DNA of 64,000 nucleotides, taken from Thermococcus camini. Lineage in GTDB: Archaea; Methanobacteriota_B; Thermococci; Thermococcales; Thermococcaceae. The translations under genes and the position numbers were made by a program. This document shows positions 7,923-61,867 of this stretch, piece after piece. Within the stretch, counting starts at the first letter, position 1. Every line of letters begins with the position of its first letter. The notes beneath the pieces are model-generated. The model was not told the origin of the DNA. It was given only the letters and a program-made list of their open reading frames with translations, and ran no database searches. Where the stretch lies: NCBI RefSeq assembly GCF_904067545.1, contig NZ_LR881183.1:996277-1060276 (forward strand), in the 5' to 3' direction.

Positions 7923-8666
7923 CTACTTAACCGCCACCAGCCAGTACCTTCTGTCGTTGGGCCTCAGCTCGTGTCCATCTCCGTAGATTTTGACCTTTCT
8001 GAAGTGCTTCCCCGCCAAAAGCCTCATCTCCCTCGGAGTGTAGATGTTGAGCTCATCGTCCACCATGAAGGCCCTAACGCTCCCGTCGGGCTTAACTATT
8101 TGAACCAGCCTCTTGAAGCGGAGCTTTTGAAAAGCAGGCTCGACCTCGCGCCAGTCGGTTATGATTAACCGCTCATCGCCCTTCCGCTCGTCCCATACTA
8201 CCGGAGAGCTTCCGCCATAGTGCCAGCACGGGAAGTCGGCGATGAAAAGCCCGCCCGGTTTCAGGCCTCGTTTTACAGAATTGAATAATTCATGAATTGT
8301 GGAATCATCGAAGTAGGTAATTGAGGAGAAAAACATCGTTATCGCGTCGAACTCTTCCTCAAAATCACTCTCAAGCGCGTCCCCCTGAATGAACTCGACG
8401 CTAAGCCCTTCCCTTTCGGCCTTTCTTCTCGCGACGGTCAGCATCTCTTCGTGGAGGTCGAGACCGACCACGTTATAACCGCGCCTCGCCAGTTCGAGCG
8501 TCGGGATTCCGGTTCCGCAGGCGAGGTCGAGGATTTTCTTTACCTCCCGTTCAGCCTCTTTCCTGAAGAGCTCCTCCATAAAGTCAATCTCATCTCTAAC
8601 CCGCTCGGCCCTTCGACGGTAGATGGTATCGTAATACTCCGCCAGAACTGTGTAGAGCTCGTGCAT
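7923..8666 (-). CDS. SAM-dependent methyltransferase
   Basis: A 247-residue class I methyltransferase. Motif I is ILDLACGTGIPTLELA at about 44-59, the acidic motif II is VVGLDLHEE and motif IV is DAITMFFSSITYF. The C-terminal beta-rich part probably shapes the substrate pocket. It resembles small-molecule or protein methyltransferases of the PH1305 type, with no known substrate. GGTGCGATG precedes the start. It ends just before the promoter of the candidate small RNA and lies downstream of the cobD-like gene on the same strand, 31 bp away. Confidence 0.82.
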   Translation of the reverse strand: MHELYTVLAEYYDTIYRRRAERVRDEIDFMEELFRKEAEREVKKILDLACGTGIPTLELARRGYNVVGLDLHEEMLTVARRKAEREGLSVEFIQGDALESDFEEEFDAITMFFSSITYFDDSTIHELFNSVKRGLKPGGLFIADFPCWHYGGSSPVVWDERKGDERLIITDWREVEPAFQKLRFKRLVQIVKPDGSVRAFMVDDELNIYTPREMRLLAGKHFRKVKIYGDGHELRPNDRRYWLVAVK

Positions 8667-8697
8667 CGCACCACCAAAAATGAATGTAGGTTCAGGT

Positions 8698-9666
8698 TTA
8701 AAATTCTACCTCCAACTCTCGGAAGGCCTCAATCAGTTTATCGTTCTCTTCTGACCTTCTGACCGAAAAGCGAACGAACTCTGGTAAGCCAAAGCTCTCA
8801 CAGTTCCTTACGAGGATCCCCCTCTCTTTCAGCCGTTCGACGGTTACCCCTGCATTGCCGACGTTTTTTATGAAGAAGTTGGCGTCACTCTTAACGCCCA
8901 GCTCCCGCTCAATCCTCTCCTTCTCCCGCCAGATTAGGGGCATGGTCTTTCTTAAGTGTTCGAAGCCGTCTTTGAGGAGAAACTCAAGGAAGGCAACCCC
9001 CGTCGAGCCTATGCCCCAGGGCATTCTGACGCTCCCGAAGGCCTCTTTAAAACCAAGGACGTAGCCCACCCTTATTCCGGGCAGACCGTAGCTCTTGGTG
9101 AAGGTTCTGAGTTTTACAACGTTCTCTCCTTCGGGACTTTCCGGCTTTTCAACGAAGTCTATGAAGGCCTCGTCGAGAACGAGGAGGGCTTTTCTATCCT
9201 CCACAGCGTCGAGAAGGGGTCTAAGCTCTCTGACGCGGTAGAATCTTCCGTCGGGATTGTTGGGGTTGCAGAAAAATACAACGGAGTTTCTCTCGACGAG
9301 TTCCGCGAGTTTCTCAGGCTCGTTCGGGCCTTTGATGACCTCTGCTCCAAAAATTCTCGCCACTCTCTCGTACTCGCCGTAGGTGTGACGCGGGATTACG
9401 ACCTTTCTCCCGCGGAGCGTGAGGATGCCGAGGAGGTAGAGCGCCTCGGTGATTCCAGCCGTTACGGTAAGGGGTTCACCGAGGAGCTCTCCTAATCCCT
9501 CCTCAAGCCCCGCGTAGTAGGGATAGCGGTTGCTTATCCCCCTGGCACGCTCGAACATCTCGTCGAGCCACTCCGGTGGATAATGGTTTAGTGATGCCGA
9601 GAAGTCCAGCAAACCTTCTTCCCTGGCACCGCCGTGGTATGTCGAGAACCTCACGGGCTCAAGCAT
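8698..9666 (-). CDS. cobD: CobD-like PLP enzyme (threonine-phosphate decarboxylase or aminotransferase)
   Basis: A 322-residue fold-type I PLP enzyme of the HisC/CobD group. The [10 protein letters not shown] motif near 148 and the Schiff-base lysine in [11 protein letters not shown] near 213 are visible, with an RVGY motif after it. It overlaps cbiB by 16 bp, which favours CobD: L-threonine phosphate to (R)-1-aminopropan-2-ol phosphate, the arm that CbiB attaches to cobyric acid. The long frame begins at 9711, but ATG 9666 follows GGGGGTGGTTCC and matches family length. A histidinol-phosphate aminotransferase role cannot be excluded from sequence alone. Confidence 0.85.
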
Positions 9667-10535
9667 GGAACCACCCCCGTTGCAAGGAGTAGGGCTATGG
9701 TAATTACCCATTCCGAAACGACCAACCAGTAAACCCTCAAAGCACGCACTATGTCTTCGTTCCCCGGTTCCCTCCCCGGGAACCGGTAAACGCCCGGCTT
9801 CTCAAGCCAGACACCGAGAACTGCACTCATGGCAGCCATCGGCTTGTCGGAGTTGAGTTTAAAGCGCGCAAGGCGGTAATACTTCAAAACCCTCCTTCCA
9901 CCAAGGAGGATGTAGAGGAGAACCGTCAAGCGGGCCGGGATGAAGTTGAGGAGGTCATCCAACCTGGCGGAAAACTTTCCAAAATATTCATAGCGCTCGT
10001 TCCGATAACCTAGCATCGCATCGAGCGTGTTCACCGCACGGTAGAGCAGAGCTCCCGGAAGGCCAAAGAGGAGGAAGTAGAGCAGCGGGGCGATTACTGA
10101 GTCGTTGAGGTTCTCGGCGAGGCTTTCTATCGCTGCAGAGTTGAGGTGGGCCTCGTTGAGGGCTCTGGTGTCTCTGCTCACTATCATCGAGACGGCCTTC
10201 CGCTTCTCCCCGATGTCCCCAGTTATCGTCCTCACGACGTGCTCATGAAGGCTTCTTATCGCAAAGGAGCTCTTGAGGAGGTAAACCGCAAGGGCGTAGC
10301 CCAGCGGGGAGGGGAGGTAAGGAGGAATAAGCGAGAGAGCTAAGGCGAAGATGACAACGATGAGGGCAACCAGTGTTCCGGCGATAAAATCGGGGAGAGG
10401 GCTTTTTCTTTTCCACCTTTTGTCAAGAAAGCCCGCCATCTTTCCGAACCACACCACGGGATGAGCTAGTGCTGGCGGTTCCCCAAGGAGTAGGTCCCAT
10501 AGCAAAGCCAGAAGAAAAACCGTCAGAACCTCCAT
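9651..10535 (-). CDS. cbiB: adenosylcobinamide-phosphate synthase CbiB
   Basis: A 294-residue membrane enzyme that joins aminopropanol phosphate to adenosylcobyric acid. The N-terminus [20 protein letters not shown] is the family signature, and the protein has about five membrane segments, with conserved [15 protein letters not shown] (near 165) and [18 protein letters not shown] 10535 is chosen by homology. It overlaps the glycosylase gene upstream by 13 bp and cobD downstream by 16 bp, so the three form one operon. This step follows CbiZ or CbiP in the pathway encoded across this island. Confidence 0.95.
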
Positions 10536-11269
10536 TCTCCGAAAACCTCCCCTATGGCAGAATACTCCTCCAGCATCTCCTCGTTCGGCTCTCTGATCCC
10601 CCTCCTCACGTACCATGCCGGATGTTTGAGGTACCTGAACTCAAAGCCGAGCCGTTTCAGGGCCTTCTCTGCGGTTCTGCCGATGGCGAAAATTGATTTA
10701 GGCCTCAAAATTTCAAGCTCCTTCTCCAAGAGTTCGAGCTCCCCTTTGCCAAAACCCTTCAGCTTATTGCCCGGAGGGTTGCACTTCACGACGTTGGTTA
10801 TGTAGACAAAGTCCGGGTTGATACCCAGAGTGAAGAGCGTCTTCCTCAGCAGCATTCCCGATGCGTCGCGGTAGAAGCATATCCCGGTCTTTCCACAGCC
10901 CTTCCTTCCCGGTGCCTCTCCAACGAGGGCAACCCCCGAGCCGGGCCAGCCGTTGGCGAAGGGAAGGCCTTCAAACTCGCCCACCCTGAGCTGATAGCGG
11001 TGGTATTCCTCGCGGCAGAACCTCAGGGGGTCTTTGAGAAGCTCCTGGTAGAGGCCTCCCAGCTCCCGGGCTGTTCTTTCGTCTTCCCTGTTCACGACGA
11101 GGAAACGCTCACCGGGGTTGTATATCGTTCTCGCGTAGACCCCGTAGGTCTTCTCGTCCAAGCTCAGGAAATCCCTCCAGTCGCGGAGGGCTAACGGAAT
11201 TACTTTAAGATTGGCGGGGTTTGTGTAGACCCCACCGACCTTTTTGAGGTTCTCAAACGGCAGGAGCAT
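10523..11269 (-). CDS. uracil-DNA glycosylase superfamily protein
   Basis: A 248-residue protein of the UDG superfamily. Motif 1 appears as [16 protein letters not shown], then [14 protein letters not shown] and [12 protein letters not shown], and the second motif begins KHPAWYV where classical enzymes have HPS. It is longer than type-4 UDGs and I do not see their full iron-sulphur cysteine spacing, so its exact subfamily and activity are open. It would excise uracil from DNA if active. It is the first gene of an operon with cbiB and cobD, an unexplained link. ATG 11269 is chosen because TATA (CCTATAAACC, about 11288-11297) sits 25 nt before it. Confidence 0.75.
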
Positions 11270-11271
11270 AA

Positions 11272-11287
11272 TGGATAAAAAGTCCAG
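11272..11287. promoter_or_regulatory. 16-nt shared B12-island element, copy 1
   Basis: TGGATAAAAAGTCCAG contains the inverted halves TGGA and TCCA around an A-rich centre. The identical 16-mer occurs at 16471-16486. Here it lies in the divergent region between the UDG-cbiB-cobD operon and the DUF71-cobZ-cobS operon, between TATA and start on the minus strand and just upstream of TATA on the plus strand. It is a likely operator for a cobamide-responsive repressor. Confidence 0.6.
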
Positions 11288-11311
11288 AGGGTTTATAGGT
11301 TTGGTGGTTCG

Positions 11312-11962
11312 ATGTCTCACGAAGAGGGAATTGCATTCTTTTCCGGTGGAAAGGACGGGCTTTACGCAGTCCATCTTGCGGAGAGAAAAGGGATTAAAAT
11401 CCCCTATCTGCTCACGCTGAAAACCACAATAGGCCTCTCACCCCACAGGGAAAATCTCGGAGCTTTAGAAACACTCGCCGGAGCAATAGGGAAAAAACTG
11501 CTCACTTTTGACATGGCAAAGGGAAGCGATGCTTTGGCGGAGTTTATAGGCTCTCTCGGCGTGGATTACATCATAGCGGGAGACGTTCTGCTTGAGGATC
11601 ACCTGAGATGGGTTGAGCGTCTCGCCCGTAAGGCCGGTGTGACTCCATTTGAACCCCTCTGGGAACGGGACACGGAGGAGCTCGCCGTTGAAATGCTTGA
11701 GGCTGGCTTTGAATACGCGATGATCGCGGTCAACAAGGAGAAGCTCGACAGAGCGTGGCTTGGCTACACCTTCCGCTCGGTTAGGGATTTAGAGCTTTTC
11801 CTCGATTCAAATCCCAGTGTTGACCCGATCGGAGAGATGGGAGAGTTCCACACGGTCGTTTTGAGAGCTCCTCTCTTCCAGGAACGCTTCGTCCTTGAGG
11901 TGTTCTCAACTGAGGAAAGCGAGAGGTATTACTGGTTAAAGTTTAGGCTGGTGGGAGAATGA
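11312..11962 (+). CDS. DUF71/COG2102 PP-loop ATPase, B12-associated branch
   Basis: A 216-residue adenine-nucleotide alpha hydrolase-like protein. The PP-loop SGGKDG is at residues 10-15, and the conserved middle GVDYIIAGDVLLEDHLRWVE and PLWERDTEELA near 115 fit DUF71. Published comparative genomics splits this family into diphthine-ammonia ligase (Dph6) and a branch found next to B12 salvage genes. The ATGA overlap with cobZ and the cobS gene that follows put this copy in the B12 branch. An amide- or amine-forming step in cobinamide salvage is inferred. GGTGGTTCG precedes the ATG. Confidence 0.82.
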   Translation: MSHEEGIAFFSGGKDGLYAVHLAERKGIKIPYLLTLKTTIGLSPHRENLGALETLAGAIGKKLLTFDMAKGSDALAEFIGSLGVDYIIAGDVLLEDHLRWVERLARKAGVTPFEPLWERDTEELAVEMLEAGFEYAMIAVNKEKLDRAWLGYTFRSVRDLELFLDSNPSVDPIGEMGEFHTVVLRAPLFQERFVLEVFSTEESERYYWLKFRLVGE

Positions 11963-12381
11963 GGGCTGAAGAAATCCTCAAAAAAATCGAATCAAAAGGC
12001 ATAACCCTCGACTCCCTGCTCGACACGGCTCTGGAGCTCTACATAGGTGAGGAGCGGGAAAAGATTCAAGAAGAACTTCATGAGCTGATGCTGAAGTATT
12101 TGAGCGACATCAACGTTCAGGCATTAATTCTTTCAGCTCTCCTGCTTGAGGAGAACTTCACGGTCGAAGGCGACCCCGTGAATTTAGTGGCGGACGAGCT
12201 GATTGGAATAAACATCGCCGAATACATAGGCGGAAAGATGGCGCTCTTCAACTTCTTCTACTACGACACAAGGAAGCCCGGGATTCTGGCGGAGCTACCA
12301 CCCTTTTTGGACGATGCCATCGGAGGCTTTATAGCGGGCTGCATGACGAGGCTCTTCGAATCGGAGGCGGACTGGCCATGA
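11959..12381 (+). CDS. cobZ: CobZ-type alpha-ribazole phosphatase
   Basis: A 140-residue protein of the PgpA fold seen in archaeal CobZ (Methanosarcina MM2058 type). Conserved features are the [16 protein letters not shown] helix and the [18 protein letters not shown] segment with [10 protein letters not shown], typical of PgpA/CobZ. The enzyme removes the 5'-phosphate from alpha-ribazole phosphate or from adenosylcobalamin phosphate, the last step of nucleotide-loop assembly. It starts inside the stop of the DUF71 gene (ATGA) and overlaps cobS by four bases, so co-translation is likely. Placement in this operon makes CobZ more likely than lipid phosphatase PgpA. Confidence 0.88.
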
Positions 12382-13079
12382 GGAACCTCCTGCCGTTCTT
12401 GACACGGGTGCCAATCAAGGGCGACTTCGAAAAAGCCCGCGAGGAGTTCTGGGCCTTTCCACTCGTTGCATTGGTTAGTTCAGCGCTCCCAACGCTCGTC
12501 CTCTACTTAGGGCTTCCCCTCTCGAACGTCCTAGCGGTTATCGCGCTTTACTTCACCATTGGCCTCCTTCACCTCGACGGCTTGGCGGACTTTGCCGACG
12601 GAGTGATGGTCAAGGGCGAGCGGGAGAGGAAGATAAAGGCCATGAAGGACGTAAACACAGGTATAGCCGGCCTCTTTGCCGTGGTAATGGTTCTGCTCCT
12701 GCAGGTTTACTCGCTCGGGCTCGTTCATTTCTACGCGCTCTTGTTAGCCGAGCTGAACTCAAAGCTCGCCATGCTCCTCGCTCTGGCAACAAAGAAACCG
12801 CTCGGCCAAGGGCTTGGGGCCTACTTCATGGAGAAGATGAACAGCGGCCAGCTCCTCGGCGGGCTCATCTTCTACGCCATCCTCCTCGCCCCTGTAGTTG
12901 TCTACGAGCAAAATGCCCTGGTCTCGCTCCTCGGTCTGGCCTTCGGGGGCTACGCCATCAAAGTTGCCCTCGGCAACTTCGGCGGGATAAACGGCGACTG
13001 CCTTGGAGCGGTTGCGGAGATAACGAGGGCCGGAACGCTTTTGGTCATGGCTTTTGCTTGGGCTTACGTGGGAGGCTGA
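12378..13079 (+). CDS. cobS: adenosylcobinamide-GDP ribazoletransferase CobS
   Basis: A 233-residue integral membrane protein with about six hydrophobic segments. The hallmark [15 protein letters not shown] at about 63-77 binds metal, and [10 protein letters not shown] and NSKLAMLLA follow as in CobS. It joins alpha-ribazole (or its phosphate) to adenosylcobinamide-GDP, releasing GMP. It is translationally coupled to cobZ by ATGA and overlaps the 3' end of the convergent lipoprotein gene by 16 bp. The substrate partners are made by CobY and CobT, encoded nearby. Confidence 0.95.
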
Positions 13080-14182
13080 ATCCCCGGAATCACATCGAGT
13101 CTATCGAGCTCCCTGTCCTCGAGGGCCGCATAAGGCAGGTATCCCCTATCCTGGGCCTTTTCTATAAAGTCGAGGATTCTCGCCATGTCCTCCTGACTCT
13201 TCGTCCCGTCGTCAGCGTAGTCCACAGCTAAGACAACTTTTCCGGCCTTAACAACCCTGTCGAGGAGTGAAACCTTTTCGTCCGTCCAGGGGCTCGGCTC
13301 AAGACCGTTGTAAAAAACGTCCTCGCTCGCCCAGCCCGAAACCGTCTCAAGGAGCGTTCCATTGTCGTATTCGAGCAGATACTCCCCATTCTGGGGAATT
13401 ATTATGAAGCTCGGTCCTGCCTTGGAGCGTGTGTAGTTCGCTATTTCCAGGATAAACTCAATCATCTGCCTGGCCGTCCAGCTCTCCCCATATTTCTTGG
13501 CCCAGAACCAGTACTCATCGACCTTGTCGAGATAAACGCCCGAAAAACCCTGCGCGATGATTTTGTCTAGGTACTTAAAGATGATTTGCTTCCAGCCCTC
13601 CTCCCAGTACTTGACGGCGTAGTTGCCCTCCCAGTCCGGATTCTCCGGCCCGAGCCACGCGGGAGGGTTCTCTTTCCACCCCTCTTTCCAGTAGAAGCGG
13701 TAATTCTCGGCCTCGCCGATGCTGATGTAGGCTATGGGGATTACCCCAGTCCTCTTAATCATCTCGATTTCTTCCCGCGTGTAGGCCCTCTCATCGCTCC
13801 CGTCCCTTGAGTAGTCCATGACGACTAAGTCGAAGCCGCTCTTCGCTATAACCTCCGGACTCGCGTTCTGGAGCCAGTACGCCCAGCTCCTAATTGAGGA
13901 AATGTTCAGCCTTCCCTTAACCTGGATTTGGCTTGAGTTTTCGCCTTTTGGAGTGGTCTGGATCGTTGATGTCACGTTTTGCTGGGCCATTTTGGGAGAG
14001 GTTACATTAGACAAAACCGGGGAGGAGGTGTGCGATGTCTGAAAAGGAGAAGACCTCGTCTCAGGTATGGGGCGAGAAGAAGACGGGAATAAAGTCGTGC
14101 TGGTTTTCTCTGTTGGGGCGTTTGAGAGACAGGCAGAGGCCAAAACTATGAGGAGCGAGAGGAGTATGCCGAGGAGCCGCAT
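13064..14182 (-). CDS. lipoprotein with GH114-like (TM1410/MJ1477-type) domain
   Basis: A 372-residue secreted lipoprotein. The signal ends in a lipobox (LASAC, about 14-18), then a Ser/Thr-rich linker to about 95, then a TIM-barrel domain of the endo-alpha-1,4-polygalactosaminidase family with [21 protein letters not shown] and [11 protein letters not shown]. These carry acidic residues that could be catalytic. It probably sits on the outer face of the membrane and cuts a surface or environmental polysaccharide; the substrate is not known. It interrupts the B12 island on the opposite strand, convergent with cobS and divergent from cobY. Confidence 0.8.
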
Positions 14183-14232
14183 AGAGATAGTTGGGCGGAA
14201 GGCCTTTTAACCGTTGCCCGCTATCAACTCCC

Positions 14233-14772
14233 ATGATAATCATCATGGCCGGCGGAAAGTCGAGCAGAATGGGCCGGGAGAAGCCCGTCCTGGAAGTCGG
14301 AAATAGACCGATGCTCCTGCGCGTTTACGAGGAGACCGAAAAAGTTGGAGAAGTTCTCGTTGCCGTCTCCAGGAATACTCCCAGAACGAAGGAGCTCTGC
14401 CTCCGCGAGGGGATTTCCTTTGTTGAGACGCCGGGGAACGGCTACGTTGAGGACCTGATTTACCTCCTTCGCGAATTCGGGCCTTTCGTCAGCGTTTCCG
14501 CCGATCTGCCCTTCCTGAAGGCGAGTGATGTAGTGGCCATCGAGAAGGCCTTTGACGGGAGGAAGAGCCTGACGGGGGTCCTTCCCCCAAAGCTCGTTCC
14601 GAAGGACTTAAGACCTGTTGTTTATCGGGGCTACGCGATAGTCGGCCTCAACGCCGTCGGAACTGAGGGAGAGCGATTTTTCGAGCTGAGCAACCCGCTG
14701 TTGGCTCTCAACGTGAACACACCGGAAGAGTTAAAGCTCGCCGAGGGGATAGCGAGGCTGGTGGGAAGATGA
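14233..14772 (+). CDS. cobY: adenosylcobinamide-phosphate guanylyltransferase CobY
   Basis: A 179-residue archaeal nucleotidyltransferase that transfers GMP from GTP to adenosylcobinamide phosphate, replacing bacterial CobU. The N-terminus MIIIMAGGKSSRMGREKP is the sugar-nucleotidyltransferase signature, and VSVSADLPFL supplies a metal-binding aspartate. TATA CCTTTTAACC (about 14203-14212) is 25 nt from ATG 14233, so the longer frame from 14191 is rejected and the mRNA should be nearly leaderless. It overlaps the small membrane gene downstream by four bases. Confidence 0.93.
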   Translation: MIIIMAGGKSSRMGREKPVLEVGNRPMLLRVYEETEKVGEVLVAVSRNTPRTKELCLREGISFVETPGNGYVEDLIYLLREFGPFVSVSADLPFLKASDVVAIEKAFDGRKSLTGVLPPKLVPKDLRPVVYRGYAIVGLNAVGTEGERFFELSNPLLALNVNTPEELKLAEGIARLVGR

Positions 14773-14981
14773 GGGGCAAGGAACTTAAGGGTGCAATAGC
14801 CTTCGTTCTCTTCATGATCATCGCTGGACTGTTCGTCTTCGGCTTCCTGCTCTTTGCAGTGGTTCTAACCCTCACCGGTCTGCTCCTTTTCCTCGGCTTC
14901 TACCTCTACGTCCGCCTGAGGCTCTGGTGGGCGAAGAGACACCCACCCAAGGAGCTTGAGGGGCCGGAAGACTACTTTTAG
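14769..14981 (+). CDS. small two-helix membrane protein
   Basis: A 70-residue protein with two hydrophobic segments (about 10-30 and 32-50), a basic cytoplasmic stretch ([11 protein letters not shown]) and an acidic C-terminus. It starts in the cobY stop (ATGA), so it is co-translated with it. I do not recognise a family. A role in holding the membrane-bound late B12 enzymes together is possible but unproven. Its last four bases overlap the 3' end of convergent cbiP. Confidence 0.75.
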
Positions 14982-16429
14982 AGCCCCAGCTCCCCCAAAA
15001 TCCTTTCCACGTCGAGGTTCCTCTCAACAATCCCCGCGAACCTCTCAATTTCCTCCTCTATGCTCCACCGCTCAATCGAAACCGGCTCAAGGCCCTTCTC
15101 AGACCTCAGAAAGTTAAGGAAGCGCTCTGTGAAGATAAAGTTGTGGAAGATGCCGTGGAGGTAAGTCCCAAAGGCTCTCTTGCCAATCGCACCTTCAGGC
15201 TCGAAAGTTTTCGCCCCGTTGATGGCGGTTATAACTGAGAAAGGCCTCTCAGAGGTGCTCCTGCCGAAGCGTATCTCGTAGCCCTCAACCGCCGTTCCCT
15301 TTGCCGGCCCCCACAGAACTTTAGCGGTTAAGTGGTTCGTCCTCTTGGTTTTCTCGAAGACTGTCTTGGCAGGCAGGAGGCCGATGCCCTTTACCTCACC
15401 GCGCTTCGACTCAACAGTATCTATTATCTTCTCACCCAGCATCTGAAAGCCGCCGCAGATCCCGACGACGAAAGAACCCTCGCGGTGGGCCTCCAAGACG
15501 GCCTCCTCAATTCCGTTCTCCCTCATCCAGAGCAAATCCTCAACGGTGTTTTTGCTCCCGGGGACTATGATAACATCACCTTTGATTTCCTCCGCTTTGG
15601 TGACGTAATCAACGCCGTTGGCCCAGTGGAGGGGCTCAAAGTCGGTGAAGTTGCTTATGTGGGGCAGCTTGATTACCTGTATGTGGAGCTCGCCTCTGAC
15701 TTTTGGAAACTCTGCTAAGGAGTCCTCCTCCGGTAAGCGGTGCTCGACGTACGGGATAACGCCCAAGGTGGGCTTCCCGTAGCGCTTTTCAAGGTACTCG
15801 AAGCCGGGCTTTAGGAGCGATGCATCCCCCCGGAACCTGTTGAAGACGAAGCCGATTATCGCTTCCCTCTCGCGTTCATTCAAAAGCTCCATCGTGCCCA
15901 CTATCGAGGCAAAGCTCCCGCCCCGGTCTATGTCTGTAACGAGGATTCCCTTTGCCTTTGCGTGGAGCATCACCCTCGTGTTCGCTATGTCGTAGTCCTT
16001 GAGGTTGATTTCGACCGGACTGCCGGCGCCTTCAATTATAACGAGGTCGTGCTTCTCCTTCAGCTCGTTGAGAACGGTCATCGCTTTCCTGAAGAGCTCC
16101 TCCTTCTTGGACAGCATGTAGTCTCTGGCCGAAACGCTTCCCACTGGCTTCCCCATGAAGACGACCTGGCTTCTCATGTTGCCCTCAGGCTTGAGCAGAA
16201 TCGGGTTGAACTTAACGCTGGGCTTTTTTCTGCACGCTATCGCCTGCAAATACTGCGCCCTGCTTATCTCGCCCCCTTCGATGCTCGGCGCTGCGTTCAG
16301 GCTCATGTTCTGGCTCTTGAATGGAACGACGTCGTAGCCGAGGTTCGAGAAAATCTGGCATAGTGCCGTGACGAGGAGCGACTTGCCAGCTCCGGACGAG
16401 GTTCCTAAGACCATCAAGGCATCTCCCAT
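14978..16429 (-). CDS. cbiP: cobyric acid synthase CbiP/CobQ
   Basis: A 483-residue glutamine-dependent amidotransferase of normal length. The N-terminal synthetase domain has the dethiobiotin-synthetase-like P-loop GTSSGAGKS at about 9-17 and [10 protein letters not shown] near 38. The C-terminal class I glutaminase domain has the nucleophile in [12 protein letters not shown] and GTYLHGIF. It amidates side chains b, d, e and g of adenosylcobyrinic diamide. No other ring-synthesis gene is here, so it may repair incompletely amidated scavenged corrinoids. ATG 16429 follows GGTGGGAGA. It shares a divergent promoter region with cobT. Confidence 0.95.
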
Positions 16430-16470
16430 TCTCCCACCGTTCGGAGTTGGCCGAAGGACATATAAACCCT

Positions 16471-16486
16471 TGGATAAAAAGTCCAG
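16471..16486. promoter_or_regulatory. 16-nt shared B12-island element, copy 2
   Basis: TGGATAAAAAGTCCAG, identical to 11272-11287. It lies between the cobT TATA (CATATAAAC, about 16459-16467) and the cobT start, over the expected start site, and upstream of the cbiP TATA on the other strand. Position and repetition at both divergent promoters of the island suggest a common operator. Confidence 0.6.
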
Positions 16487-16497
16487 CGGTGGTTGAA

Positions 16498-17508
16498 ATG
16501 GAGAGCCTCTTCCTGCTGGTTTTGGGTAACACGGAGATAAGCACAGTCCCGGGAATAAGTGTGGCCGGGGCTACACCCGAACTTACCAGACTCACCCCAG
16601 TAGCCGATGCGGAGTACCTCTTCCACGAGAAGCCCCTGACTATTGACGTAATCCCCGTAACCCCTGAAGGCCACCCGACGCCGGCTATAATCACCAAAGC
16701 GGCGAAGGAGCTTGCGAACTTCCCGGTTCTAGTTGTCAGGGGTGGAACATATCTCGCTCCGCTCGTCCCCCATATCCACATCAGCAACGCCGTCGGGAGG
16801 GACTTTAGGAAAGAACCTGCACTGCCGGAGTTTGGGGAGATAATCAGGCGTGCCAAGCTCCTCGGCGAGGAGCTGAACAAGATGCCAATCAAGGAACTCG
16901 TCATCGGCGAATCCACTCCCGGCGGAACTACAACTGCCCAGACCGTTCTGTGGGCGCTCGGGTATGAAGCTAAGACGAGTTCGGCCTCGCCCAATAACCC
17001 TCAAAGCCTGAAGGAGAAGGTAATCAGCGAGGCCTTCAAGAGGGCCGGAATTGAGAAGGGCCAGCTCAGAGACAATCCGCTCGAAGCTCTAAGGCAGTTC
17101 GGCGACCCTATGCTGGCAACGGTGATAGGTATTTCCCTCGGCTTCAGGAAGAACGTCGTCCTGGCTGGAGGAACGCAGATGCTGGCCATCTCAGCGCTCC
17201 TAAAGGCCCTCGGCGAGGATTTAAACAGGTTCATGATTGCAACGACGAAGTGGGTGGTCAATGATAAGAGCGCAACCTTCCTCGAAACGGCGAGGGAAAT
17301 CGGAATAATAACTTATTCGGCCGACCTTGACTTCTCAAAGAGCGAGTTTAAAGGACTGAGAGACTACGAGCGCGGCTACGTCAAGGAAGGAGTTGGAGCG
17401 GGAGGGGCGACGTGGCTGGCCGTTAAAGCCGGCTTCTCGCCAGAAGAAGTCAGCAAAAAGGTCGAGGAGCTTTACGGAAGGCTTATGGAGATGAAGTCGT
17501 CCCCCTGA
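16498..17508 (+). CDS. cobT: archaeal CobT-family phosphoribosyltransferase
   Basis: A 336-residue protein of the archaeal CobT family (TIGR00303-like), which makes alpha-ribazole phosphate or a related alpha-nucleotide from nicotinate mononucleotide and a lower-ligand base. Conserved stretches are [34 protein letters not shown] and [11 protein letters not shown] near 225. ATG 16498 after GGTGGTTGAA is chosen over a frame opening at 16447, which would run into the promoter. The last 26 bp overlap the convergent VapC gene. Confidence 0.92.
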
Positions 17509-17947
17509 GCAGTTCAGCCTCTATCCCGGCTTTTACCGCTTTTTCGTACATCTTTTTGTCGTCGGTTATCAGCTTGGCACCGGCTCTTTTTGCACATGCT
17601 AGGAAAAGGACGTCAAAACCGCTTGCCTTTGTAGTAATTCCAAGGTCAATGGCGATTTCAAGGAGATAAACGTCCGAGTACAGTAAGGAATGTTCGGTAA
17701 TAAAACTAACCGCAAGCCTGGAAAGGGCAGGATTGTTGGAGAGGCGTGAGACAACGGAAGCCGTCTCCACAAGCATAGCAACCGGCTCGTGTAGCAGTAT
17801 CCTACCCATGGTCACTTCATCAAGAATGGACTTCGCTTTTCTGTGAAGCGCGAGCCGGGAGTAGTAAACTTCGTCCCTTTTCTTCCGCTTTGGTGGAACA
17901 AAGCCCTTCACGAAGACGCTCGTGTCGAGGACGAGGTCAGTAGTCAT
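17483..17947 (-). CDS. vapC: PIN-domain ribonuclease toxin (VapC-like)
   Basis: A 154-residue PIN protein. The first acidic residue is in [11 protein letters not shown] near residue 8, a central glutamate lies in [12 protein letters not shown], and the C-terminal acidic pair is in [25 protein letters not shown]. These would hold magnesium for RNA cleavage. It overlaps the small gene upstream by 11 bp, the usual toxin-antitoxin arrangement. Its 3' end runs 26 bp into cobT on the other strand. The target RNA is unknown. Confidence 0.87.
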
Positions 17948-18143
17948 AGTTCCTCTCCCTCATCTCCCGTACCATCTCGGTTATGTCCTCTACGTCTTCC
18001 GTGTACTCAGTCTCCTCTTCCGCAAGTTGAATGAGCTCTTCAAGGGTAACCCTGCTCTTCCGAAGTTCCTTTAACCGTATTTTCAACAGGAGATTCTGTG
18101 CATCAAGGAAGAGCCTTTCAACCTGGCTCTCAACGTCCTCCAT
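17937..18143 (-). CDS. antitoxin of the VapC pair
   Basis: A 68-residue charged, helical protein (ESQVERLFLDAQNLLLKIRL, then TLEELIQLAEEETEYTEDVED) with no clear DNA-binding fold. Its stop lies inside the PIN gene. By position and size it is the antitoxin that would wrap the toxin active site with its acidic C-terminal tail. GGTGAGAGA precedes the ATG. Confidence 0.75.
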   Translation of the reverse strand: MEDVESQVERLFLDAQNLLLKIRLKELRKSRVTLEELIQLAEEETEYTEDVEDITEMVREMRERNYDY

Positions 18144-60909: not shown

Positions 60910-61758
60910 TCACCTGTAAACGAGGTAAATAGGTTCAAGTTTGAGTTCCCGCCTCACAAAGGCCCCGAGGAAACACCTGAGACCCCGCTTGAATTCCCCC
61001 ATTTTAAGGCCCTCAAGGAGCTCGCGGGGATTCTTAATAAAACCCGAGAGGAAGTAATCCTTAATTATCTCAGCGAGCAGTCTTTCGGAATTCCCTGCCA
61101 GTGAGAGGGCCTTGGTGAGTTCTCCCCTCAGTGCCAGCTCAACGCAATCGTTCCAGTAAAGGGACTCACGGTTAGTCTCAACCAGTTCTTCAATGGCCTC
61201 TTCGCAGTTTTCGATGTCCCTTCCGATACTTCGAAACAGCTTTGCCCTCGTAGGCCTGAGAAGTTCATGACAGACCTCAAGTGCCTCCCCTGGGTTTTTG
61301 GTTAGAATTGCCATTCTGAGAAGGGCCAACCTGCAGAGTTCCCTGTGATAGTTCCCCCTGGGGAGGTTGCAGATGAAAAGAACCCCTGGAAGGTTTATTT
61401 TTCGCAGTGCCTCTGTGGTTATCCTGAACACCTTGCGGACGTTCTCCCCGGCCAGGTGGAGGTTTTCAATGACGGTCACACTGTCCCAAGTTTTCCTTAA
61501 ATATTCCACGAGCAGATCGGGTTCCGTTTCGTTGCATGCCTCAAGCAGGTAAAATGCCGTCCTGTCTCCTCTGAGGGCGAGAAGCCGTGCCTCCCAAAGG
61601 ATTAACATCTTAACATTGTCTGAACAGCCATAGCGCTTTATGAGTGGAACCAGCTCACTGTACCGTCCCTTTTTTCTAAGTCTGCGGGCAACCTTGTAAG
61701 CTATCTCCTCAGGGTTGTCGCCATGCCGGACGGAGACCTGGAGGGATAAAATATCCAT
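60910..61758 (-). CDS. unrecognised helical protein, first of a pair
   Basis: A 282-residue helix-rich protein with repeat-like segments (IAYKVARRLRKKGRYSELVPLI; LIKRYGCSDNVKMLI; RELCRLALLRMAILTKNPGEALEVC; ESLYWNDCVELALRGELTKALSLAG). Pattern is TPR- or HEAT-like and the protein may be a scaffold. It is the head of a two-gene operon; TATA AAATTTTTAATAGG (about 61785-61796) lies 25 nt upstream. Divergent from the ATPase, with the tandem palindromes between. Confidence 0.7.
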   Translation of the reverse strand: MDILSLQVSVRHGDNPEEIAYKVARRLRKKGRYSELVPLIKRYGCSDNVKMLILWEARLLALRGDRTAFYLLEACNETEPDLLVEYLRKTWDSVTVIENLHLAGENVRKVFRITTEALRKINLPGVLFICNLPRGNYHRELCRLALLRMAILTKNPGEALEVCHELLRPTRAKLFRSIGRDIENCEEAIEELVETNRESLYWNDCVELALRGELTKALSLAGNSERLLAEIIKDYFLSGFIKNPRELLEGLKMGEFKRGLRCFLGAFVRRELKLEPIYLVYR

Positions 61759-61820: not shown

Positions 61821-61867
61821 TTACACGGCATGTAATTTACATGGGGTGTAAATTACATGGGGTGTAA
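61821..61867. repeat. three tandem TTACA-N5-TGTAA palindromes
   Basis: TTACACGGCATGTAA (61821-61835), TTACATGGGGTGTAA (61837-61851) and TTACATGGGGTGTAA (61853-61867) are spaced exactly 16 bp centre to centre. They lie in the divergent region between a helical-protein operon and an AAA ATPase, next to or over the ATPase promoter. Regular spacing suggests cooperative binding of a dimeric regulator. Confidence 0.8.

Follow-up and report, generated by a model that had tools for sequence, protein, structure and literature searches.

A conserved 15-bp dyad as the probable operator of a cobalamin regulon in Thermococcaceae

A CBL-box, the binding signal of a hypothetical B12 regulator in some archaea, was reportedly described by Rodionov et al. 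in 2003 (J Biol Chem); our literature searches for the CBL-box gave no result, and we know of no identified B12 regulator for these archaea. A sequence-only reading of the DNA analysed here had called the B12 regulons of Thermococcales little described, which stands in part: the accessible text of one paper already lists a predicted cobalamin regulon of Pyrococcus furiosus, with the regulator given as 'CblrR (unknown)', so that the regulon is not wholly undescribed (PMC10746257). The same text names RbkR and ThiR as vitamin regulators of archaea. As in the predicted archaeal cobalamin regulon, the locus described below has a palindromic site at Thermococcales B12 uptake and salvage genes. We read this element as the probable operator (probability about 0.87) of the Thermococcaceae cobalamin (B12) regulon, a 15-bp dyad bound by a putative dimeric protein.

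The window, the whole 64-kb stretch of DNA that was analysed, comprises bases 996277-1060276 of a single contig of 2,022,529 bp. The features of its B12 island are as follows (window coordinates, strand in brackets):

8698..9666 (-): cobD-like aminotransferase-fold gene, matching Pfam Aminotran_1_2 only; start codon chosen by us
9651..10538 (-): cbiB (cobinamide-phosphate synthesis), Pfam CobD_Cbib; start codon chosen by us
10523..11269 (-): uracil-DNA glycosylase (UDG) superfamily gene, first in the leftward operon, Pfam UDG
11272..11286 (no strand): dyad 1 (TGGATAAAAAGTCCA), putative operator between UDG-cbiB-cobD and DUF71-cobZ-cobS, from sequence
11292..11299 (-): TATA box (CCTATAAA) of the UDG-cbiB-cobD promoter, by TATA score, kept in relatives
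11312..11962 (+): DUF71 / PAB0415-family ATP pyrophosphatase, Pfam Diphthami_syn_2 and NCBIfam PAB0415_fam
11959..12381 (+): cobZ-like gene, weak match to Pfam PgpA
12378..13079 (+): cobS (cobalamin-5-phosphate synthase), Pfam CobS
14978..16429 (-): cbiP (cobyric acid synthase), Pfam CbiA and GATase_3
16459..16466 (+): TATA box (CATATAAA) of cobT, by TATA score, kept in relatives
16471..16485 (no strand): dyad 2 (TGGATAAAAAGTCCA), putative cobT operator, common to the divergent cbiP, from sequence and footprint
16498..17508 (+): cobT, nicotinate mononucleotide-dependent phosphoribosyltransferase, NCBIfam TIGR00303 above cut-off

The cobD-like gene takes its name from its gene neighbourhood, and the DUF71 neighbour fits a subgroup tied to B12 salvage (PMC3541065).

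Two exact copies of the 16-nt element TGGATAAAAAGTCCAG lie at 11272-11287 and 16471-16486, and an exact search of the whole 2,022,529-bp genome (single contig) returned these two only. Their coordinates, their placement between UDG-cbiB-cobD and DUF71-cobZ-cobS and between cbiP and cobT, and their inverted TGGA/TCCA halves had all been claimed from the letters; sequence and Pfam matches bear these claims out, the halves being symmetric with T/C and A/G at the inner position. The core of the element is the 15-bp dyad TGGAY-AAWTT-RTCCA; TGGAT-N5-GTCCA is itself a near-palindrome, whose halves form an inverted repeat when T/C and A/G count as equivalent at that position. The half-sites are spaced by roughly one turn of the helix, which would suit a dimeric DNA-binding protein. 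Dyad 1 lies 5 nt downstream of the UDG TATA box and ends 2 nt before the UDG start codon, and dyad 2 lies 4 nt downstream of the cobT TATA box and ends 12 nt before the cobT start codon. The earlier placement of the element in TATA-to-start space was thus right for UDG and cobT; on the DUF71 and cbiP sides the dyad, judged by eye, overlaps a TATA-like stretch or sits just upstream of it.

Site lists for the genomes were derived from pattern searches. In the window's own genome, the pattern TGGAYW5RTCCA, whose A/T-only centre (W5) was picked after the first matches had been viewed, gave six matches vs 0 for a reversed-pattern control; the six perfect dyads are at the two cob sites, btuF, nrdD (B12-independent ribonucleotide reductase), mcmS (methylmalonyl-CoA mutase small subunit) and acdA (acyl-CoA synthetase alpha subunit). 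With any centre allowed, the dyad pattern had 8 genome sites vs 3 for the control, and 2 among the matches listed fall in tRNA-like genes. When one mismatch was allowed in the A/T-centred pattern, 15 matches were obtained (control: 0), 11 of them at B12-linked genes; this search added mcmL (methylmalonyl-CoA mutase), meaB, btuC and nrdJ, along with a weaker case, a PduO-like adenosyltransferase identified by eye. At the last of these (position 958674 of the genome, locus L347) the one-mismatch dyad overlaps the start codon and may be a coincidence. Another one-mismatch dyad, at 61743-61757 of the window, lies at the 5' end of a 282-aa frame (60910-61758, - strand), with a tandem repeat coming after it near 61837; this dyad showed no link to B12. 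Methionine synthase was not seen among the dyad targets in the genome scans.

Across the family, the dyad is present in 78 of 78 Thermococcaceae genomes counted, with 453 sites vs about 8 control hits. Nine fully read genomes have 65 sites (63 fetched and the two of the window), of which 55 (53 of the fetched ones and both window sites) are at B12-linked genes if acdA is counted as linked. The linked genes are the cob genes, btuF, btuC, nrdD, mcmS, mcmL, meaB and acdA; the remaining ten sites are at other genes or within genes. The consensus over the linked sites is (T)TGGAYAAWTTRTCCA(A), and its A/T centre is symmetric without the search pattern having required it. By eye, TGGAYAAWTTRTCCA bears no resemblance to ACACWATATWTGTGT, the NrdR box at reductase genes. 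The tie of the dyad to B12 is a putative one drawn from gene identity. The acdA gene and the recurrent small surface proteins with dyads are not obviously B12 genes, and BtuF and BtuC are assigned to a family that includes iron transporters too.

Several targets have features of their own. The btuF gene of the window's genome (L117:6693-8537, - strand) encodes 614 aa with two periplasmic-binding-protein stretches, and several of its relatives in other genera encode about 340 aa. Divergent from btuC is a gene for a long secreted-looking protein (L131:1037-2986, - strand; own copy L352:1-1430, - strand) which had no Pfam or NCBIfam match and is a candidate for a corrinoid-binding surface protein. 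At L133, L138 and L345, genes for small surface proteins that resemble one another at the N-terminus have a dyad or near-dyad near the start. Secreted-looking proteins with a dyad near the start are also encoded at L135, L136, L177 and L193; the two of these that were scanned had no Pfam match, and three of the four adjoin a gene that by eye resembles hydroxylamine reductase/Hcp. At L143 (G046 contig C75), an mcmS-type promoter with its dyad adjoins a transposase-like gene, and the mutase gene is not adjacent.

Alignment of orthologous cob promoters, the check proposed with the sequence-only reading, showed the element to be kept while the flanks vary. The dyad is retained in ten other cobT promoters (related loci) with varying flanking sequence and with changes at most at the inner position or the centre, e.g. 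TGGATAAAACCTCCA; at L103 it is kept despite a different upstream sequence, and in some other genera the cobT-proximal copy is imperfect. At UDG, the dyad is at exactly -17 from the start in 8 of 8 loci with the window's arrangement, and no full dyad match was found at UDG in four loci of other lineages. All 30 nrdD promoters checked have the dyad, perfect in 27 and with one mismatch in 3; its usual position is -25, and in many cases another copy lies farther upstream. G002, G013, G073, G086 and G093, which have no nrdD dyad, lack nrdD itself. AdoCbl-dependent nrdJ is present in 11 of 11 Thermococcaceae genomes checked. In matches or long frames, nrdD (G032, G033, G011, G012 and G089) and nrdJ (several genomes) appear split, as if intein-bearing. 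The proposed genome-wide scan placed the element at btuF, btuC, cob, nrdD and mutase genes. Neither the loss in close relatives nor the many copies at unrelated positions that had been raised against the idea occurred; the element persists in close relatives, altered at one or two positions, and its few copies mostly have a B12 link.

Position relative to the TATA box was taken from an 8-nt TATA score. This performed badly at nrdD and miscalled two mcmL promoters, so that the positions in these cases rest on aligned promoters judged by eye. The dyad is downstream of TATA by 4-5 nt at UDG, by 2-6 nt at cobT (loci with cbiP next to it, and L103/L104) and by 0-23 nt at btuC, nrdD and meaB, the nrdD TATA calls being poor and the distance of about 10 nt from dyad end to nrdD start codon firm. 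At btuF, aligned promoters place it downstream of TATA, and a further copy, in many cases imperfect, immediately upstream of TATA. It is upstream of TATA by 31 nt at mcmS (8 of 8) and, by score, at mcmL by 34 nt in five and by 25 in a Pyrococcus; scored mcmL values of 16 and 42 are mis-called TATA boxes, where the spacing is about 34 by eye. For nrdJ, seven genomes have the near-match TGGATAAAWTATCCGAC or a close variant some 170 nt ahead of the start and about 105 nt upstream of TATATTTA, which is kept in four of five aligned; a perfect dyad lies upstream of nrdJ in Pyrococcus G008, and no dyad or near-match was found there in G005. Of the acdA loci, ten have the dyad upstream and one has it downstream. 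The B12-dependent enzymes (mcmS, mcmL and nrdJ) thus have the dyad upstream, and the supply and bypass genes have it downstream or overlapping, a grouping made post hoc, after the data had been viewed, and hence a pattern rather than a test. Exceptions are meaB, if grouped with the mutase, and cbiP, where the dyad is upstream of a TATA-like stretch.

The mcmS and mcmL promoters (L119, L129, L130, L140, L141 and others) have a second conserved block between dyad and TATA, approximately [CT][AC]AAG-N6-CTT[TG][AC]. At mcmL there is a CTTTA-N6-TAAAG-like palindrome, which is common to acdA promoters near TATA. The block or palindrome is possibly another factor's site.

Outside the family, the dyad also occurs in the sister family f4, which belongs to the same class. 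By eye, it precedes a TATA-like stretch there by about 8-10 nt, at UROD/B12-binding fusion methyltransferases and near corrinoid-protein genes. Family f3 has few dyads, all within genes, and these were set aside as regulatory sites since they look like chance. The dyad was not found at the mutase genes of families f3 and f5.

Given a dyad that is conserved, concentrated at B12-linked genes and placed as described, we infer protein binding, a corrinoid signal and repression at the two window sites. There the dyads would fill the space between TATA and transcript start of UDG-cbiB-cobD and cobT, so a bound protein should prevent initiation, repressing corrinoid salvage most likely under an ample B12 supply. 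Conservation and the B12-linked sites support the operator proposed by the sequence-only reading; we amend its repressor, as the regulator may be dual. A position-dependent dual regulator, a single corrinoid-responsive factor by which the cell would swap enzymes according to B12 supply, would explain the positional split, and we put it forward tentatively, at not far short of even odds. Bound downstream of TATA, the factor would repress B12 uptake, salvage and nrdD; bound upstream, it would activate the mutase subunits, nrdJ and the f4 corrinoid methyltransferases.

The same operator could instead serve a pure repressor everywhere, the upstream dyads of the mutase, nrdJ and acdA genes acting by looping or controlling divergent neighbours. 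Many mcmS sites are also just upstream of a divergent PHP-domain gene, the mutase accessory gene meaB has a downstream, repressor-like site, and paired dyads flank TATA at btuF and nrdD. However, the spacing from TATA (31 nt at mcmS, about 34 nt at mcmL) is constant although the upstream neighbour differs among genomes, which argues that the dyad belongs to the mutase promoters, and a site 31-34 nt from TATA should leave the initiation complex unoccluded. We regard pure repression as a real contender whose chances are somewhat under one half. That the signal is cobalt or another metal, as with metal-sensing repressors, is improbable: BtuF/BtuC-type transporters carry iron chelates too and corrinoids contain cobalt, but the targets are B12 salvage, the B12-dependent mutase and both kinds of ribonucleotide reductase, and metal transporters and efflux pumps are not among the sites read.

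Cobalamin riboswitches control such genes in bacteria, yet an RNA element of this type is very improbable here and was discarded, with no Rfam match at gathering score in window positions 8000-18000. The dyad serves in both orientations, and at UDG its end is 2 nt short of the start codon and 25-30 nt from TATA, which should place most of it ahead of the transcript. A chance repeat or core-promoter feature draws on the 64-kb window having 5 direct repeats of at least 16 nt, where 20 first-order Markov simulations of the window gave a mean of 0.5 repeated 16-mer pairs and 3 in some runs; an exact 16-mer repeat is therefore not very improbable, and the identity of the two copies is by itself weak evidence for a signal. 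This explanation is contradicted by the excess of dyads over the reversed control and by their preference for B12-linked genes, and we give it a negligible probability.

Within the operator reading, we consider it unlikely that the factor is an HTH-CBS protein encoded near btuF. Among 30 genomes of the window's genus, most have its gene near btuF or the btuF dyad; in L105 and L108 the gene is near cobT-btuF. CBS domains bind adenosyl compounds. Against this, the gene is far from btuF in Pyrococcus and G002, the protein is present class-wide, including families without the dyad, and its recognition helix AGVTQAYIAK is the same in dyad-less families and AGVSQSVIAK in f4, which has the dyad. Distribution and recognition helix thus do not follow the dyad across families, assuming that an orthologue binds the f4 dyads, and the candidate is weakened. 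The HTH is HipB-like, and the half-site resembles the HipB operator; this link was dropped, as the half-sites face the opposite way. An ArsR-type protein beside acdA was also rejected, being in every Thermococcaceae genome searched and not found in f4. Inspection of domain matches alone showed no HTH fused to a B12-binding domain (PF02310) in the genome, where PF02310 matched the mutase small subunit and, weakly, a 434-aa frame.

The dyad could serve as bait in a search for the factor, being short and exact and having a list of targets. The split predicts opposite B12 responses of nrdD vs mcmS, mcmL and nrdJ, and Thermococcus is genetically tractable.

Compared with known systems, the dyad is like the CBL-box reportedly described in 2003 in being a putative archaeal B12-regulator signal, and the two window sites would, judging by sequence, join the already predicted cobalamin regulon (CBL-box / CblR). 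Bacterial cobalamin riboswitch regulons follow the same logic, in that a single B12-linked control governs uptake, salvage and B12-independent isozymes, whereas here the element is a short DNA dyad at the promoter without an Rfam match. The RbkR and ThiR regulons, in the accessible text of PMC10746257, likewise place a vitamin pathway under a DNA-binding protein in the same organisms; they concern other pathways and have assigned regulators, unlike the putative factor of the dyad. Closest is the P. furiosus cobalamin regulon of that paper, which shares the order, the pathway and the lack of an assigned regulator; the accessible text gives neither motif nor targets, and the likeness to the dyad rests on pathway and order. 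Relative to this earlier regulon, new points may be the split in dyad position and the presence of mutase and nrdJ among the targets.
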